DNA from: Brachyspira hyodysenteriae ATCC 27164
GTDB lineage: Bacteria; Spirochaetota; Brachyspiria; Brachyspirales; Brachyspiraceae
Reading direction: 5' to 3'
Assembly (NCBI RefSeq): GCF_001676785.2
Contig: NZ_CP015910.2
Coordinates: 2,666,001 to 2,730,000, forward strand
Length of the DNA stretch: 64,000 nt
Under the pieces are notes generated by a model. The model saw only the letters and a list, made by a program, of their open reading frames with translations. It did not search any database and was not told where the DNA came from. Below are positions 27,960 to 59,350 of this stretch, one piece after another. How positions within the stretch are numbered: position 1 is the stretch's first letter; each line of letters opens with the position of its first letter. A program made the translations under genes and the position numbers.

Positions 27960-28195
27960 ATACAAAAGTTTAATTATAGTATAGTATTTTCAATTATAAC
28001 ATTTGTCTTTTTGCAAATTATCGAATCCAAAAAATTTATATCTAATTATAGATTAAATAAAATTTTACTTTTTTATTTATTTTGAAGTCCCCCCTTTTAA
28101 ATTTATAGTTTTAATTTTAATTAAAAATTTTATTTATATCAAAAGCTTAATTAGAAAAATCACATCCGCCCAAGATTTATTTATATTTATAATGA
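27960..28195. repeat. Degenerate direct repeat, copy 1 (matches 28803-29045)
   Basis: This AT-rich stretch recurs 840 bases downstream with the same order of landmarks: AAAGTTTAATTAT, TGTCTTTTTGCAA, a CCCC-rich run before TTTTAAATTTATAG, ATTTTATTTATATCAAAAGC and CCCAAGATTTATTT. Identity is high in parts and poor in others. It contains the left half of the nested-palindrome family (28088-28176). No gene is seen. Confidence 0.6.
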
Positions 28196-28334: not shown

Positions 28335-28526
28335 TCTTTTTGATTCCGCAGGCGGGCTTCGCCTGTGCCAACACCGAGTAGGTGCCTTGCCTACGGCACG
28401 TAGAGCGTCGGCAAAAGAAGTGGGGTTTTACCCTACGGGTACGCTTCGCGGTGGGCAAAGCCCCAAATATAAAAATAAAACATAAATTTATTTTTGACAA
28501 AATATAATTGTTTAGGTATGTACTAA
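28335..28526 (+). repeat. Right part of intergenic element, family A
   Basis: A GC-rich island in an AT-rich gap. Shared with the copies at 45706 and 46770: AAAAGAAGTGGGG, a GC-rich variable loop, CCCC, then TTTTTGACAAAATATA and the terminal GTTTAGGTATGTACTAA. The usual stem loop is replaced here by several small GC hairpins. Its end abuts or overlaps the left terminus of another copy at 28521. A possible minus-strand frame over it (28276-28545) is dismissed as chance. Confidence 0.65.
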
Positions 28527-28804: not shown

Positions 28805-29045
28805 TACCAAAGTTTAATTATTACATAGCATTTCATTATAATATATGTCTTTTTGCAACTTTTTTGGCAAAAAAAGTTGATATAATTTTTTAATTTATCT
28901 AAAATAATAATTTTACTTTTTTGTTTTATTTTGAATCCCCGCCCTTTAAAATTTATAGTATTAATTTCAATTAAAAATTTTATTTATATCAAAAGCTTAA
29001 ATTATAAAAAGCACCCACCCCCAAGATTTATTTAACTTTATAATT
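28803..29045. repeat. Degenerate direct repeat, copy 2 (matches 27960-28195)
   Basis: Partner of the stretch at 27960-28195, sharing the same landmark order, with the difference that this copy keeps a hairpin of arms CAACTTTTTT and AAAAAAAGTTG near 28855. It runs into the nested-palindrome copy at 28937. Confidence 0.6.
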
Positions 29046-29136
29046 AAATATACTGCACGATAAATGCATTTTTATATATGGTTTAAATGAATTGATAACA
29101 AAATTTATATTTTCAGATTCGTTTACCGTGCGTTAA
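28937..29136. repeat. Nested-palindrome element, family B, left half and centre
   Basis: Landmarks in order: CCCCGCCC (28937), CCCACCCCCAAG, TGCACG, and ACCGTGCGTTAA near 29125. The right half (CTTGGGCGGG, AAAGGGCGGGG) is missing. It lies downstream of the argH terminator, in a gene-free stretch of 1.3 kb (27911-29230). Confidence 0.65.
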
Positions 29137-35425: not shown

Positions 35426-35498
35426 GGGCGATTAGCTCAGCTGGGAGAGCGGGTGCCTTACAAGCACTAGGTCGGCGGTTCGAGCCCGTCATCGCCCA
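35426..35498 (+). tRNA. tRNA-Val (anticodon UAC)
   Basis: A 73-base cloverleaf: acceptor GGGCGAT pairs with ATCGCCC; D arm GCTC/GAGC; anticodon arm GGTGC/GCACT with loop CTTACAA, so the anticodon is TAC; T arm GGCGG/CCGTC with TTCGAGC. Discriminator A is followed by ATTTT, so CCA is not encoded. No other tRNA is in the window. Confidence 0.97.
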
Positions 35499-39152: not shown

Positions 39153-39351
39153 CACCGCACGCAGAGCAAAACTAAAAATATAATTTTAATAATAATTCAA
39201 ATATTATTATATTATAAATTTAGTTCATCGTGCGTTAAATAGATTATGAATCTAAGAAAAACTTGGACAGGTGCTAAAATTTCTAATGAAGCTGTAAAAA
39301 TAATTAATATAAAAACTAAAAATAAATCAGAAAATTTTAAAGGGCGGGGAA
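39153..39351. repeat. Nested-palindrome element, family B, centre and right half
   Basis: Landmarks: ACCGCACGCAGAGCAAAACT (39153), CGTGCGTTAAATAG, CTTGGACAGGTGC, then AAAGGGCGGGGAATGA at 39340. The left C-rich arms are missing. It fills most of the 335-base gap between the secreted protein and the LUD gene. Confidence 0.7.
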
Positions 39352-40181: not shown

Positions 40182-40491
40182 CCCCGCCCTTTATATTTTA
40201 TTATTTAATTCAGCCATTTTTACTTTATTATATTTAGTAATTCAATTAGAAATTTTAACGCCCACCCAAGATTTTTTTAAATTTCTTACTCTATTACCGC
40301 ACGCAGAATAAAACTAAAAATATAGATTTACTTATAATTCAAATTTTATCATTCTTTAAATTGCATTAACCGTGCGTTAAATAGATTATTAATCTAATCA
40401 AAACTTGGGTGGGTTCTAAAATTTATAATTTAAGCTTAAAAAATAATTAATATTATAATTCAAAATAAATCAGAAAATTTTGAAGGGAGGG
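40182..40491. repeat. Nested-palindrome element, family B, full copy (310 bp)
   Basis: The most complete copy. Arms nest about a common centre: CCCCGCCC (40182) with GGGAGGG (40485), CCCACCCAAG (40261-40270) with CTTGGGTGGG (40404-40413, perfect), and CGCACG (40298) with CGTGCG (40371). The spacers are AT-rich and the centre shares AGAATAAAACTAAAAATAT with other copies. It sits in the gap between flagellin and the LUD gene. Confidence 0.75.
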
Positions 40492-40582: not shown

Positions 40583-41440
40583 TTACTGAATTAAACGTAA
40601 AGCACCTTGGTTCATAGTATTAGCTTGAGCCAACATAGCCAAATTAGCCTGACTTAAGATTTGGTCTTTAGCGAATTTAACAGAAGTCTCAGCCATATCA
40701 GTATCTCTTATTCTGCTTTCAGAAGCTGCAGTGTTCTCATAAGCGATCATCAAGCCTTGAGCAGTAAGCTCTAATCTGTTTTGGTAAGCACCAAGATTAG
40801 ATCTTTGTTTAGAAACTTTAGTTAAAGCTTCATCAACTATACCTATAGCACTGTTAGCTTTGTCTATAGAAGAAATAGAAATACCAGTACCTTCAGCAGT
40901 TTGTAAACCTAAAGCAGCAGCTGTCATAGTTCCTATATAAACTCTTCTTCTTTCATCCATGTTGGCACCAATATGAAACCACATAGAAGCAACAGGAGCA
41001 CCACCCTCATTAGGATTAGAGAATCTACCAGTTAACATGTTAAGAGTATTGAACTGAGCATGGCTAGCAATACGGTTAACTTCGTCTACTAACTGAGAAA
41101 CTTCTACTTGAATAAGCATTCTGTCAGCATCAGTATAGATACCGTTAGCAGATTGTACAGCTAATTCACGAATTCTTTGTAAGATGTCTTGGCTCTCTTG
41201 AAGGTATCCTTCAGTAGTTTGAATGAAAGATATACCGTCTTGAGTATTTCTTTCAGCCTGACGTAAACCGCGAATTTGTGTTCTCATTTTTTCAGATACT
41301 GCTAATCCAGAAGCATCGTCGCCAGCTCTGTTAATTCTCATTCCAGAAGAAAGAGCAGCCATATCTTTAGAAAGGTCTACGTTTCTAAATTTTAAAGTAC
41401 GTTGTGCATTTATAGCACTAATGTTATTATTGATGATCAT
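40583..41440 (-). CDS. flaB: Flagellin core protein, FlaB type
   Basis: 285 residues starting [16 protein letters not shown], the universal flagellin N-terminus. An ATG two codons earlier lies right after GGAGG, too close for initiation, so I used the ATG at 41440. D0/D1 helices are at both ends ([40 protein letters not shown]); the middle variable domain is very short, as in spirochaete periplasmic filament core proteins. It forms the filament core within the periplasm. A candidate sigma-28 promoter lies about 250 bases upstream, with a structured leader. Confidence 0.96.
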
Positions 41441-41628
41441 CGTCATCCTCCATGATATTTATTCAAAAAGGCATCCGTGCCTAATTGGCAAAAAATATTA
41501 AAGAGAATTTAAGGTATTCCGACAATCTAACTGACTATATGAAGTTGCCAAAATACCATTAAATCCTATATAAAGAATATATTATAACGCCAATAAATAT
41601 ATTCTTATAAATTATATGGTATCAACTA

Positions 41629-42070: not shown

Positions 42071-42268
42071 TAACGCACGCTAAGTAAAGCTAAAAATATA
42101 AATATATTTTAATTCTAATATTGTTAATATTAAAAAATCTACTAACCGTGCGTAGAGAACATTTTTAATATAATAGAACCTGGGCGGGTGTTAATATTTC
42201 TATATTGGTATTTAAAAAAATTAAAATAAAAATTTTATAGTTATACATTGAAAATAAAGGGCTGGATT
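42071..42268. repeat. Nested-palindrome element, family B, centre and right half
   Basis: Landmarks: ACGCACGCTAAGTAAAGCT, ACCGTGCGTAGAG, CCTGGGCGGGTGTT (about 42179), AAAGGGCTGGATTT. Left arms are missing. No reading frame. Confidence 0.65.
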
Positions 42269-43541: not shown

Positions 43542-43740
43542 GCCCACCCTCTAGGCTTTTTAAACTCACTGTTATTTTTGTATTGTATTTCTTTTTTGTT
43601 TTTTCTTGTTGTTTTAACCACACCCTAGATTTATTTAAATTTAAAAATACATTCACCGCACGAAATAATGAAGCTATAAATATTTGTTTATTTTAAATTA
43701 CAACTTCAATTATATGCAAAAAATCTGCAAACCGTGCGTA
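43542..43740. repeat. Nested-palindrome element, family B, left half and centre
   Basis: Landmarks: GCCCACCCTCTAGGCTTTTT, AACTCACTGTTATTTTTGTAT, ACCACACCCTAGATTTATTT, ACCGCACGAAATAAT and ACCGTGCGTAAAT. It abuts the stop of the quinone-oxidoreductase-like gene. Confidence 0.65.
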
Positions 43741-44759: not shown

Positions 44760-45055
44760 AATATCTCCATTTTTTATTTTTTATAAAAATATATTTATGT
44801 GAGATATAAATCAATATAAAAATGTTGCTCATTTGCAATTTTTGTTGTAATAACGATAGTATTTCTATATATAGAAATGTAATGATGATACATACAACAC
44901 ATATATTGCCTATATTAGAGATTAATAAAAAATTAATGAATAAGTTTTATTTTAGAATTAAAGTTATTTTGCTATGTTATTTTAAAGCTATTATATATTT
45001 ATTAAATTAAAAAAATCTGCACACCATAGTTAATTTAATAAACATATATACCGTA

Positions 45056-45083
45056 TTGACAAAAAAACTATATACATTAGAAT
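45056..45083 (+). promoter_or_regulatory. Promoter of membrane-protein cassette 1
   Basis: TTGACA, 16 bases, TAGAAT, 41 bases before the ATG. The rest of the 365-base gap (44760-45124) is AT-rich, and I see nothing else in it. A 62-codon frame at 44822 has no ribosome site and is not called. Confidence 0.65.
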
Positions 45084-45124
45084 TGAAAAACTATATATGA
45101 TAATTAAAGAGTAGTTAAATAAAA

Positions 45125-45700
45125 ATGAAAATTAAAAAGAAAAAAAATGAAAGCAATCATAATGTAATAGGTTTAATAATATATCTCTTCTTATCTTTAA
45201 TTATACCGTCTACTGCAATATCATTTTTTGCTATGGCTGATAAAAATATAAAAGAAAAAAAAGAAATAATATATAATGATAAAGAAATAATATATAATAA
45301 TAAACAAACTAATGCAGCAAATTTTGACAAAGAAGAAATACTTCAAAAAATAATAACATCATTATTATTAAAAGGAAGTTCATCATCTAAATATAGCAGC
45401 TCAAAAGTGGATTTGAAAATTCTTGGTATAAGAGTATTAATTGTATATGGACTGACTTATATATTATCGCTTGCAATTACCGCAATAATAGCCCAAAAAT
45501 ATTATCATGAAGATATAAAAATAAAAGAAGATATTAAAGAGACTATAGAAACAATATTAGTAGGGTTAGCTACTCTGGCATTAATGGCATTCGTTTTAAT
45601 AGTAACAGTAATAAATATGGAAAGTAATAGAGAATATTTAGCTTTCAGCGGAGTGATTTTTGGTTTTATAGCCTGTATTATCATTAGAAAAATAACATAA
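45125..45700 (+). CDS. Lineage-specific membrane protein, cassette copy 1
   Basis: 191 residues. One N-terminal span (about 17-37), a hydrophilic part with tandem heptads KEIIYND/KEIIYNN and SSSSKYSSSK, then three spans (about 98-122, 140-160, 170-190). No known domain. Its ATG lies 14 bases after AAAGAG because the codon that is ATG in copy 2 (46210) reads ATA here, with a new ATG six bases later; translation may be weaker. Very close to copy 2 throughout, with flanks included in the same duplication. Confidence 0.7.
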   Translation: MKIKKKKNESNHNVIGLIIYLFLSLIIPSTAISFFAMADKNIKEKKEIIYNDKEIIYNNKQTNAANFDKEEILQKIITSLLLKGSSSSKYSSSKVDLKILGIRVLIVYGLTYILSLAITAIIAQKYYHEDIKIKEDIKETIETILVGLATLALMAFVLIVTVINMESNREYLAFSGVIFGFIACIIIRKIT

Positions 45701-45705
45701 ATTTA

Positions 45706-46010
45706 TTAGTATTCTAAAAATTTTTAAGTTTGTCAATTTTTTATTCAACTTTTTCCCGCCGCAAAAAGTTGCTGCCGCAGGCACGCTTCGCGAAAGTGCA
45801 AGTATAAAACTAGTACTAAATCATACTAAAATCATCTTAAATGTAATGTAATTCATAAAATTAAAGCCAAAATGTAGCCTTTTTGCTTCTTTGTGGCAAC
45901 AAAAGAAGTGGGGGTGTTACGAAGTACGCAGAGCGGTAGGGCTAGTCCCCACAAATAATAAAAATAATAAAATAATTTTGACAAAATATAGTTGTTTAGG
46001 TATATACTAA
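45706..46010 (+). repeat. Intergenic element, family A, full copy (305 bp)
   Basis: Left end TTAGTATTCTAAAAATTTTT, right end GGTATATACTAA; TTGTCAA near the left matches TTGACAA near the right, so the ends are inverted repeats. Inside: hairpin arms CAACTTTTT/AAAAAGTTG around CCCGCCGC (45746-45771), GC insert, GTGCAAGTATAAA, hairpin arms CTTCTTT/AAAGAAG (45886-45908), then a variable GC stem. No gene. Confidence 0.8.
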
Positions 46011-46146
46011 ATTTTTTATTTTAACAATTATAGTTTTTTATATATCAAATTAATTCTATTGCTTTTTTATATTTACTGCAATTTTTTGTTTAATACTTTT
46101 ATTTTAGGCTTACAATAAACTAACTCCAATAAACATCTATACCGTA

Positions 46147-46174
46147 TTGACAAAAAAACTATATACATTAAAAT
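46147..46174 (+). promoter_or_regulatory. Promoter of membrane-protein cassette 2
   Basis: TTGACA, 16 bases, TAAAAT. Same layout as at 45056; 1,091 bases further on. Confidence 0.65.
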
Positions 46175-46209
46175 TGAAAAACTTTATATGATAATTAAAG
46201 AGTAGTTAA

Positions 46210-46764
46210 ATGAAAATTAAGAAGAAGAAAAAAAATGACAGCAAAGTTAATGTAATAGCTTTAATAATATATGTCTTCTTATCTATGATTATACCGCCTA
46301 CTTCAATATCATTTTTTGCTAAGGCTGATAAAAATATACAAGAAAAAAAAGAAATAATAGATAATAATAAACAAACTAATGCATCAAATTTTGACAAAGA
46401 AGAAGTACTTCAAGGAATAATAACAATATTATTAAAAGGAACTTTATCATCTAAATATAGCAGCTCAAAAGTGGATTTGAAAATTATTGGTGTGAGAGTA
46501 TTAATTGTATATACACTGACTTATGTATTATCGCTTGCGGCTACCGCAATTATAGCCCAAAAATATTATCATGAAGATATAAAAATAAAAGAAGATATTA
46601 AAGAGACTATAGGAACAATATTAGTAGTGTTTATTACTCTGGCATTAATAGCATTCGTTTTAATAGTAATAGCAATATATATGGAAAGTAATAGAGAATA
46701 TTTAGCTTTCAGCGGAGTGATTTTCGGTTTTATAGCCTGTATTATCATTAGAAAAATAACATAA
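46210..46764 (+). CDS. Lineage-specific membrane protein, cassette copy 2
   Basis: 184 residues, closely matching the gene at 45125. The seven-residue shortfall is a single KEIIYND heptad, present twice in copy 1 and once (KEIIDNN) here. AAAGAG stands seven bases before the ATG. Same four-span layout. The copy also carries its own family A element (46770-47076), so the unit was duplicated as a block. Function unknown. Confidence 0.7.
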   Translation: MKIKKKKKNDSKVNVIALIIYVFLSMIIPPTSISFFAKADKNIQEKKEIIDNNKQTNASNFDKEEVLQGIITILLKGTLSSKYSSSKVDLKIIGVRVLIVYTLTYVLSLAATAIIAQKYYHEDIKIKEDIKETIGTILVVFITLALIAFVLIVIAIYMESNREYLAFSGVIFGFIACIIIRKIT

Positions 46765-46769
46765 ATTTA

Positions 46770-47076
46770 TTAGTATTCTAAAAATTTTTAAGTTTGTCAA
46801 TTTTTTTATTCAACTTTTTCCCGCCGCAAAAAGTTGCTGCCGCAGGCACGCTTCGCGAAAGTGCAAGTATAAAATTAATACTAAATCATACTAAAATTAT
46901 CTTAAATGTAATGTAATTCATAAAATTAAAGCCAAAATGTAGCCTTTTTACTTCTTTGTGGCAACAAAAGAAATGTGGGTGTTACGAAGTACGCAGAGCG
47001 GTGGGGCTAGTCCCCACAAATAATAAAAATAATAAAATAATTTTTGACAAAATATAGTTGTTTAGGTATATACTAA
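46770..47076 (+). repeat. Intergenic element, family A, full copy in cassette 2
   Basis: Near-identical to the copy at 45706, with the same termini and hairpins. Its presence in both repeat units shows the element was in place before the duplication, or was copied with it. Confidence 0.8.
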
Positions 47077-47211
47077 ATTTTTTATTTTAACAATTATAGT
47101 TTTTTATATATCAAATTAATTCTATTGCTTTTTATATTTACTGCAATTTTTTCTTTAATACTTTAATTTTACGCTTACAGTAAACTAATTCCAATAAACA
47201 TCTATACCGTA

Positions 47212-47239
47212 TTGACAAAAAAAGCATATATAATAAAAT
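47212..47239 (+). promoter_or_regulatory. Third copy of the cassette promoter
   Basis: TTGACA, 16 bases, TAAAAT, preceded by the same AACATCTATACCGTA as at 46147. The matching membrane-protein gene does not follow. Downstream are only an 8-codon frame (MKNKMLFN), AT-rich sequence and the frames at 47425 and 47586. Confidence 0.6.
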
Positions 47240-47424
47240 ATATTTAGGATTATGAAAAATAAAATGCTATTTAATTAGACATTTATTAATTTACACAATA
47301 CAGTTTTATTTTCTATATAAAAGTCTATATTACAATAAAAAGTATTGTCTTCATATTTTTCTAATCATAATATATATATATTGGTATTTTAGCCATTCAT
47401 AAAAATAAAAAAAAGGAGTAAATA

Positions 47425-48938: not shown

Positions 48939-49101
48939 ATAAACCTCTTTTAAAAATGCTTACTGCAAATTAATAAATATTTATCATAAATTGATTTTTA
49001 TTTCAAGTTATTTGTTAGTACCTAGACAATGTATTAATAAAAAAATAATTAACGCACGGTAAATAAAGCCTTAAAATAAGTTTTAAATTTAATTACATTT
49101 G

Positions 49102-49413
49102 CCCACCCTTTAGGCTTTCTAAACTCACAGTCATTTTTATATTATCTTTCTTTTTAATATTACCTGTTATTTTAGCTGCCCACCCAAGATTTTTTTTAAT
49201 TTGTAGAGTATTTTTACGCACACAGAATAAAACTAAAAATATAAATTTAATTATAATTCAAATCTTATTAACTATAAAATTTTATTCACCGTGCGGTTAG
49301 TAAATCTATAATTTTAAATAAACCTTGGGCGGGTGCTAAAAAGATAATCTGAACTTTTAAATCTAAATAAAGTTTGATAGAAAAAGAGATTAACAATTCT
49401 AAAGGGCGGGGAA
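49102..49413. repeat. Nested-palindrome element, family B, full copy
   Basis: GCCCACCCTTTAGGC (49101), CCCACCCAAG (49179-49188), ACGCACACAGAATAAAACT, ACCGTGCGG, CCTTGGGCGGGTGC (49323), AAAGGGCGGGG (49401). All arms are present. It fills the gap between the two related membrane-protein genes. Confidence 0.75.
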
Positions 49414-58850: not shown

Positions 58851-58990
58851 AAATAATTCCTAAAATTTATTTATTACATTTTATATTTTTTCAAATATTA
58901 AGTAAAGTATAAAGTTATTCGCATGCAGATAAAAATAATAAATATTAGTAGATTAACATTCATATTTTTATCCATAAATAAAATTCAATT

Positions 58991-59350
58991 AAACATGCGT
59001 TAAATAAATTTTCAATCTAATTAAAATTTGGGCGGGTGCTTTAAATTCTAATTTAAATAATAAAATAAATAAAAGTTAAAACATCAAAATAAAGCAATTA
59101 ATAATAAAGGGCGGGGTATGTAATTTAAGTTTTAAAATTTATCTTCACTTGCCCACCCTCTAGGCTTTTTAATTTTTTCTGATATTTTTGTATTACTTTT
59201 CTTTTTAATCTTATATGTTATTTTAGCTGCCCACCCAAGATTTTTTTAAATTTATTGTATATTCACCACACGCAGAATAAAGCTTATTAATATAAATAAA
59301 TTAATAATGGCATAATAATTATATAAATGATTTCGTTTACCGTGCGTTAT
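58991..59350. repeat. Rearranged family B element
   Basis: Right half first: ATGCGTTAAATAAATT, ATTTGGGCGGGTGC, AAAGGGCGGGG (about 59107); then left half and centre: GCCCACCCTCTAGGC (59151), CTGCCCACCCAAGATTTT (59229), CACACGCAGAATAAAG and ACCGTGCGTTA. So this is two partial copies in direct order. It fills most of the gap between thiE and lgt (58851-59417). Confidence 0.7.

Follow-up and report, generated by a model that had tools for sequence, protein, structure and literature searches.

Length-constrained modular repeats of the Brachyspira chromosome as candidate sites for an origin-domain factor

A repeat family built from two modules

Beside a flagellin gene (40583–41446) in a stretch of 64,000 nucleotides from the chromosome of Brachyspira hyodysenteriae ATCC 27164—“the window,” with 27% GC, whose features are given here on the forward (+) strand—lies an element of 310 bases (40182–40491) that is a member of a large repeat family. 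Short GC-rich boxes follow one another from 40183 to 40491 in the order CCCGCCC, CCCACCC, CGCACG / CGTGCG, GGGTGGG, and GGGAGGG, with spacings of 78-37-73-36-78, and a second full copy at 49102–49410 has CCCACCC, CCCACCC, CGCACA / CGTGCG, GGGCGGG, and GGGCGGG, spaced 77-38-73-37-77. A preliminary description of this DNA had placed full copies at 40182 and 49102 and had called their arms the only GC-rich parts; both copies are there, with all of their boxes, and the remark on composition is broadly right.

Two modules, joined on a fixed lattice (30/36/84/80 bp), account for the copies. The core, which we call K, is about 80 bp long and runs from CGCACG to CGTGCG; the arm, of about 84 bp, is bounded by two GGGYGGG boxes and is an R arm where it follows K and an L arm where it stands before K, inverted, with CCCRCCC boxes. 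From box to box, the distances are 77 within L, 37 from L to K, 74 within K, 36 from K to R, 77 within R, and about 43 between an R arm and the L arm that follows it. In these terms, the first full copy is an L arm at 40183–40267 (CCCGCCC ... CCCACCC), a K core at 40298–40376 (CGCACG ... CGTGCG), and an R arm at 40407–40491 (GGGTGGG ... GGGAGGG). The second has its L arm at 49102–49185, its K core at 49217–49295 (CGCACA ... CGTGCG), and its R arm at 49327–49410 (GGGCGGG ... GGGCGGG); directly ahead of it, at 49053–49080, is a sequence (CGCACGGTAAATAAAGCCTT) that resembles, as judged by eye, the start of a K.

A mechanical module search found 16 modules in the window and none in each of 30 block-shuffled windows. 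Partial copies had been claimed at 28088, 28937, 39153, 42071, 43542, and 58991, and all are real. The first is a degenerate copy at 28056–28185 that ends in CCCAAGATTTATT and whose first part (28056–28159) is 78% like 28906–29009. The module search then gives an L arm at 28938–29020 with a K core at 29054–29132 (TGCACG ... CGTGCG); a K core at 39156–39234, followed at 39265–39348 by an R arm in which the inner box is mutated (GGACAGG) and the outer GGGCGGG intact; a K core at 42074–42152 with an R arm at 42182–42265 (outer box GGGCTGG); and an L arm at 43543–43625 (inner box CACACCC) with a K core at 43657–43738, for which a right arm was not found, making this a left-only half copy. The part at 58991 belongs to a larger element, K-R-L-K. 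It begins at 58920–58999 with a seventeenth module, a K core that lies outside the 16 of the mechanical search and has a symmetric change in both boxes (CGCATG ... CATGCG), and continues with an R arm at 59030–59115 (module search) and, 36 bp farther on across an R/L junction, an L arm at 59152–59236, to be closed by a K core at 59267–59346 (CACACG ... CGTGCG).

The same modules are chained together elsewhere. Stretches of four genomes yielded 35 LKR, 30 LK, 27 KR, 18 KRLK, 15 K, 14 KRL, 12 R, 8 RLK, 6 RL, 5 L, and 2 RLKR chains as well as six longer forms seen once each; the 12 R, 5 L, and 6 RL chains are arms without a detected K. K-R-L-K is the usual form with two cores (18 of the 22 chains with exactly two K), and neither outer arm is present in it. 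Tandem duplicates have units of about 345 bp, and in one genome (G007), half units repeat at a period of 233 bp.

The preliminary description saw the arms as nested about a common center, at which copies were broken and rejoined to give half copies and swapped halves. K is indeed a dyad center, and it has a companion of a second kind: the 36–37 bp junction of an R arm with the next L arm, which carries the R/L dyad of K-R-L-K (59116–59151, for instance). Half copies are common as well—among the 96 K sites analyzed in the window’s genome, oriented by polarity, 26 have a left arm alone, 30 a right arm alone, and 30 both arms—and arm types on the wrong side also occur. The breakpoint itself is not where it had been placed. 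In copies whose K retains the two boxes by which K sites were located (copies broken within K escape such detection), homology on the armless side ends at the outer edge of K, and the other type of end is the R/L junction.

These elements have a direction. K cores occur in two orientations, and the arm types go with the orientation of K: the left arm is mostly CCCGCCC (C type), and the right arm is mostly GGGTGGG (T type). Across the 30 two-armed elements, the inner box pair is G-T in 18, A-T in 7, A-C in 4, C-T in 1, and G-C in none, and the outer pair is G-T in 18, G-C in 7, A-T in 3, and something else in the other two. The inner halves are heterotypic, the opposite of what one would expect of a perfect palindrome.

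Spacing, paired boxes, and unpaired arms

What, in such elements, is being held constant? All 96 K spacers measure 64–70 nt (SD 0.95), and 99% of them lie within 2 nt of the median, compared with 31% expected at the neutral indel rate and at the divergence seen among K copies. That neutral rate, 2.9 substitutions per indel, comes from 26 alignments of element-free gaps between the window’s genome and four relatives (449 substitutions and 157 indels at 8% divergence). All 97 of the pattern places located in the DNA of the window’s genome are 76–82 bp long, where the pattern allowed 70–98, and box distances measured without limit agree with fixed spacing; both measures are free of the restriction to box distances of 68–80 that applied to one set of K sites. 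For R and L spacers, 98% and 93% lie within 2 nt, in a narrower search of about 5 nt either side. The constancy of K spacer length despite drift in sequence is the strongest evidence that we have of selection on geometry. Helical phasing of A-tracts in the spacers, looked for near 10.5 bp, is not found there (power at 10–10.5 bp is no higher than in the control).

The K boxes, for their part, change in coupled fashion. In all of the DNA sampled, copies with an arm box nearby had both boxes intact in 297 cases, a one-sided change in 27, a symmetric two-sided change in 6, and an asymmetric two-sided change in 1. The six symmetric changes stand at six loci with different spacers (four in the window’s genome, one of which is the window’s core at 58920, and one each in G012 and G003), and a seventh, in G004, has no arm box nearby. 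When the count is anchored on the arms, there are 224 sites with both boxes exact in 153, and five of the six two-sided pair changes are complementary. Coupling of this sort is equally expected of symmetric protein half-sites and of a hairpin stem.

Compensatory change across the proposed helices is seen for the K boxes and not for the outer and inner arms. In the pairing tests, which used the 30 of the 96 elements that carry both arms, an element’s own arms are 0.591 identical after inversion vs. 0.589 for arms re-dealt among elements, and 0.40 of permutations reach the own value; without normalization for polarity, own arms came out less complementary than re-dealt ones, and polarity explains the arm result. 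The interior halves of K are slightly less complementary than re-dealt halves (0.537 vs. 0.555). RNAalifold folds the 30 elements mainly into three nested helices, with −24.8 for the forward strand vs. −14.5 for the reverse, and gives re-dealt halves −25.7 ± 1.0. That the arms form a long hairpin or cruciform was tried as the main reading and rejected on these grounds, own and re-dealt arms being equally complementary and the folding gaining nothing from true pairing. The cruciform that the preliminary description drew from the nested arms fares no better in the inner boxes, where 30 elements hold no G-C combination.

Placement, range, and the replication origin

These are DNA elements, not genes. 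No K site of the 96 lies inside an open reading frame (ORF) of at least 80 codons, and 2 lie inside ORFs of at least 60 codons. In stretches mostly picked for holding elements, convergent gaps make up 38 of 85 occupied gaps vs. 27 of 178 unoccupied ones (Fisher p 6e-7), and divergent gaps make up 9 of 85 vs. 42 of 178 (p 0.01). The convergent bias is not visible in a small unbiased sample near the origin, where 1 of 16 convergent gaps and 7 of 77 tandem gaps are occupied; that sample, from which stretch L142 (almost entirely one giant ORF) is omitted, does have more cores close to the origin (7 over 184 kb) than far from it (1 over 260 kb).

Where, then, is the origin? In the window’s genome, dnaA lies at 1.17 Mb (G000:C1:1173560). 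Third-position GC skew there is positive in 12 of 12 samples between 0.06 and 1.40 Mb; between 1.55 and 3.04 Mb, it is negative in 9 of 11 samples and near zero in the other 2. A pair of parS-like sites, identified by the parS consensus, stands at 3.038 Mb (3037832–3038050) of the 3.041 Mb chromosome, adjoining position 0. The pair and the skew-defined origin are about 1.2 Mb from dnaA, and a separation of parS and dnaA recurs in G019, G016, and G012 and, less wide, in G007. From sequence, the replication origin appears to sit at the parS pair, far from dnaA, because the skew flips there and because published work (PMC3163572 and PMC3532143) places the Brachyspira origin by skew and unlinks it from dnaA. 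(An older placement at dnaA is found in PMC2897892.) The parS sequences add their own evidence to the published skew. A clustering of the elements at the terminus, as read from the positions of dnaA, is overturned by GC skew and by the position of parS.

Measured from parS, 80 of the 96 K sites of the window’s genome lie within 600 kb, a span of 39% of the chromosome, and the median distance is 254 kb vs. 760 kb if they were uniform. Within 0.2 of chromosome length from parS are 31 of 37 clusters in G016 and 53 of 67 in G019 (forward strand only); in G007, the clustering is not significant (15 of 32 clusters, KS p 0.075). With five poly-G artifact rows (G007) and one overlapping row (G019) excluded, as they are from these counts, element density is origin-centered in three of the four genomes examined.

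A genome-wide search, of the kind that the preliminary description proposed, finds CGCACN{60,88}GTGCG at 99 places in the window’s genome and the reversed pattern at none. Of these, 97 were located, and 95 are within the analyzed 96 (the ninety-sixth has a TGCACG box); two located places near parS, at 3.024 and 3.038 Mb, are outside the 96, an omission that works against the claim of clustering, and of the two pattern places that are not among the 97, one, 2491998, is clearly unrelated. BLAST with the element matches 25 of 41 genomes, made up of 23 of the 25 genus genomes (its own included) and, weakly, two others (best E 1e-5). Across 84,980 species genomes, one exact pattern turned up 64 stretches, all Brachyspira. 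Inside the genus, G006 and G009 have no BLAST match, G021 has two weak ones, and the pattern is absent in G009 and G021.

Several familiar identities were tried and set aside. The full copy has no match in plasmid and phage records, and one exact pattern occurs in 0 viral contigs, which speaks against a phage or plasmid origin. Rfam returns nothing at gathering score for the whole window except a tRNA at 35426, and its best E for the full copy, 0.69, is at chance level and far below gathering; a known RNA family was rejected on that account. Mobilization by a REP-type transposase was rejected too, the Y1 domain (PF01797) being found in 0 of 8 Brachyspira genomes where the control was positive in 5 of 14 known genomes. 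The family is unmentioned in the accessible parts of four Brachyspira papers (PMC2650404, PMC3163572, PMC2897892, and PMC3532143), which is weak evidence, the search having mostly left subscription journals outside.

At six element-bearing gaps of the window, 15 orthologous gaps could be resolved (the gap at 58991 has no resolved orthologue). Fourteen of the 15 contain one or more K or else a pair of arm boxes, the fifteenth (G004 at 42071) holds a single box, none is a clean empty site, and the control gap gave 0 of 2. The core at 39156, for example, has a K in its orthologous gap in 5 of 5 related genomes resolved, with the x or y box changed in some. The preliminary description had set against its own account the case of copies at fixed, shared places with no half copies: sites are indeed common to related species, and half copies, as noted, are common too. 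By eye, no target-site duplication is apparent at the flanks of the 18 K-R-L-K elements.

In orthologous alignments, identity is 0.890 in the boxes (near that of coding DNA), 0.818 in the spacers, and 0.789 in other intergenic DNA. Single copies do decay: the arm at 39265 has lost a box in the window, and in G004 and G013, there are deletions within the orthologue of the 40182 element. The architecture also varies between species, with arms gained or lost, half units duplicated, and genes standing between two copies. In G005 and G013, an ORF of 279 and 276 aa, respectively (stretch L111, 15028–15867; stretch L118, 16492–17322), lies between two copies, at a place with a single element in the window and in G012 and with only an ORF of 84 codons in G004; the 279 aa ORF of G005 has no Pfam match. 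G005 also has a 2.8 kb segment bracketed by copies of the window’s 49243–49360 stretch. Of 37 synteny breakpoints, 16 are no more than 100 bp from an element, a figure on which we place no weight, its null being all window positions and the related genomes being counted separately, and which is inflated as breakpoints fall intergenically.

In some genomes, the parS pair itself has a K. Of the 26 genus genomes searched, 21 contain an exact parS-like 16-mer. Ten of these have a K next to a parS site or in the interval between two, and in 6, the distance to one parS is exactly 6 bp; the K pattern at parS was not matched in the other 11, including G016, despite the strongly origin-centered elements of that genome. 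Nine homologous loci share one order: parS, 6 bp, K, about 9 bp, a compact cluster of G boxes, and a second parS. Across them, 19 of 19 K-box columns are invariant, a result to be read with the fact that the loci were picked by a K pattern that fixes most of both boxes, and only the flanking columns are free of that bias. Identity is 0.750 in the K spacer, 0.812 in the G cluster, 0.986 in the right parS, and 0.649 in the left parS, which has decayed. When the remaining loci, along with three known ones, were searched with a profile, a single further homologue came to light, in G004, its boxes altered; in G011, the tenth genome with K at parS, the arm boxes that go with K are of the ordinary kind. 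The parS-like sequences are distinct from K, which does not itself fit the parS consensus. DnaA boxes, looked for at the nine loci, came to one box-like site in one locus, 926 bp off. ParB_N is found in one protein in each of 7 genomes, among them G009 and G021, which are without the element by pattern.

What might read, or merely carry, the elements

It helps to ask what is already known that looks like this. REP and BIME sequences are stem-loops of 20–40 bp near the 3' ends of genes; BOX elements of Streptococcus pneumoniae are modular intergenic repeats with optional modules. The parS sites of ParB are dyad DNA sites concentrated about the origin, those of the nucleoid occlusion factors Noc and SlmA are short single palindromes, tens to a chromosome and depleted near the terminus, and phage attP, attL, and attR consist of a core to which a left and a right arm may be joined. 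REP/BIME reach over 100 copies of extragenic palindromic modules with regular spacing and alternating orientation, according to PMC2817692; for general background on partition sites and for the relation of ParB to Noc, we refer to PMC9712426 and PMC7383237.

The Brachyspira elements are like REP/BIME in being multicopy extragenic palindromic modules of alternating orientation (L, K, R; K is found at 99 places and, among the 96 analyzed, never inside an ORF of at least 80 codons) and unlike them in being dyads of about 80 bp with an AT-rich interior, centered on the origin and set on a fixed lattice, without a Y1 transposase being found; where REP/BIME have a short covarying stem-loop, here the arms lack covariation, and the covarying K boxes enclose about 68 nt. 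Optional modules in an intergenic repeat recall BOX (the two compared by description), which does not share the alternating inverted arms. Like parS, the elements are dyad sites around the origin, and 10 of 21 genomes have a variant of K at their parS pair; unlike parS, they have another sequence, some 100 copies over more than 1 Mb, and half-sites about 74 bp apart. They share with Noc and SlmA sites their number on the chromosome, their dyad form, and their scarcity near the terminus, and they differ in being modular and from about 80 to more than 400 bp long. Full, left-only, and right-only forms around a core are reminiscent of att sites, from which the 74 bp or so between core half-sites sets them apart, and we know of no att counterpart to K-R-L-K. 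A dispersed modular palindromic intergenic repeat is, in short, a known kind of thing; to our knowledge, and going by a literature search, what appears new is the fixed lattice, together with halves of unlike type, a gradient from the origin, and a K at the parS pair.

Our leading answer, offered tentatively and at somewhat less than even odds, is that the elements are DNA sites read by a putative origin-domain factor and that they mark the origin-proximal Brachyspira chromosome. We consider this the best explanation because of the locked geometry, the coupled K boxes, the polarity, and the origin-centered density. The GC-rich boxes would be half-sites for one or two dedicated, putative DNA-binding proteins, which would contact two CGCACG boxes about 74 bp from each other, as well as GGGYGGG boxes at a separation of about 77 bp, and would bridge or wrap the AT-rich DNA between them. 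Some 100 such complexes might organize or tag the origin domain together with ParB–parS, perhaps with a part in its segregation or folding, and recombination between copies, deleting or bracketing genes, would be a by-product. Several observations pull the other way: single copies decay, box conservation is only at the level of coding DNA, the family is missing or nearly missing in three genomes of the genus, the copies of G007 show no significant clustering at the origin, K is missing at parS, by the pattern, in 11 of 21 genomes, and the G-box cluster at parS is only 0.812 conserved. Rearrangement of the origin region, seen both among species and inside single species, could moreover concentrate repeats of any sort. 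A bolder proposal is a chromosome-organizing “code,” in which about 100 heterotypic, length-locked K/R/L elements form the Brachyspira origin domain and are read by a putative protein specific to the genus; at the parS pair, the centromere would incorporate a compact variant of K and G boxes, in which the K boxes are kept where one parS decays. We regard it as on the unlikely side.

The main rival to the protein-site explanation, and one that we think quite possible, is that the elements are passive or selfish intergenic repeats, partnerless and akin to REP/BIME or BOX, that multiply through duplication and gene conversion and accumulate in an origin region tolerant of rearrangement. It sits comfortably with high copy number, with tandem duplicates, half copies, and decayed copies, with restriction to one genus (one pattern, 64 stretches, all Brachyspira), with the closeness of breakpoints to elements (that inflated number), and with an origin region that varies between species and whose rearrangements are symmetrical about the origin (PMC3163572 and PMC3532143). 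Constant spacer length and symmetric K-box changes, however, would need selection or else length-exact copying, and sites common to several species and the failure to find a Y1 transposase domain in any of the 8 Brachyspira genomes searched also count against it.

Two other explanations take up parts of the same evidence. The three nested helices (outer, inner, and K stem), the lower forward-strand energy, and the symmetric double changes in the K stem would suit a transcribed structured RNA, made from the strand whose box centers are capable of G-U pairing; with G-U counted, the forward strand can pair at 25 of the 30 inner box centers and at 28 of the 30 outer ones. Yet re-dealt halves give an equal consensus energy, arms of the same element match no better than arms paired across elements, the inner box has four A-C mismatches and no G-C pair in 30, and Rfam offers no family at gathering score and nothing beyond chance for the full copy, and we consider such an RNA improbable. 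Selected recombination handles—gene-flanking elements that would allow cassette-like gain and loss, aided by the gene transfer agent of the genus—would suit the ORF bracketed by two copies in G005 and G013 where the window has one element as well as the 2.8 kb bracketed segment of G005. Ordinary homologous recombination between repeats yields the same pattern, however; the spacing constraint, the K at parS, and the symmetric K-box changes are all left unexplained by it; no recombinase is linked to the elements (Y1 being the one type searched); and this reading strikes us as very improbable.

Locked spacing in a drifting sequence, joined to a density that declines with distance from the origin, points strongly to a function. 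Should a protein read the elements, Brachyspira would gain a chromosome-domain system that has no counterpart known to us, in a genus whose origin lies apart from dnaA, and we would gain a direct handle on replication start and origin segregation. If they are passive, they still explain most of the intergenic GGGNGGG-type sequence in the window and some of the gene gain and loss near the origin, and they still merit annotation in comparative work.

Other structures of this DNA deserve a mention in their own right. A second repeat, a CTTTTTCCCGCCGCAAAAAG-like dyad, is intergenic in the window at 28523, 31883, 45713, 46778, and 57133, and relatives of it lie, as judged by eye, between or near the parS sites of G004, G010, G012, G016, G017, and G024. 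The window also holds a tandem array at 44973–47300, with units of about 1065 bp and repeated ORFs (45125–45700 and 46210–46764), and, at 2617–2768, a perfect 76 bp tandem duplication flanked by two ORFs. Far from both, near the skew-defined terminus, is a giant ORF of at least 5938 codons (stretch L142, 2185–19998; G000:C1 from about 1,402,184 onward).
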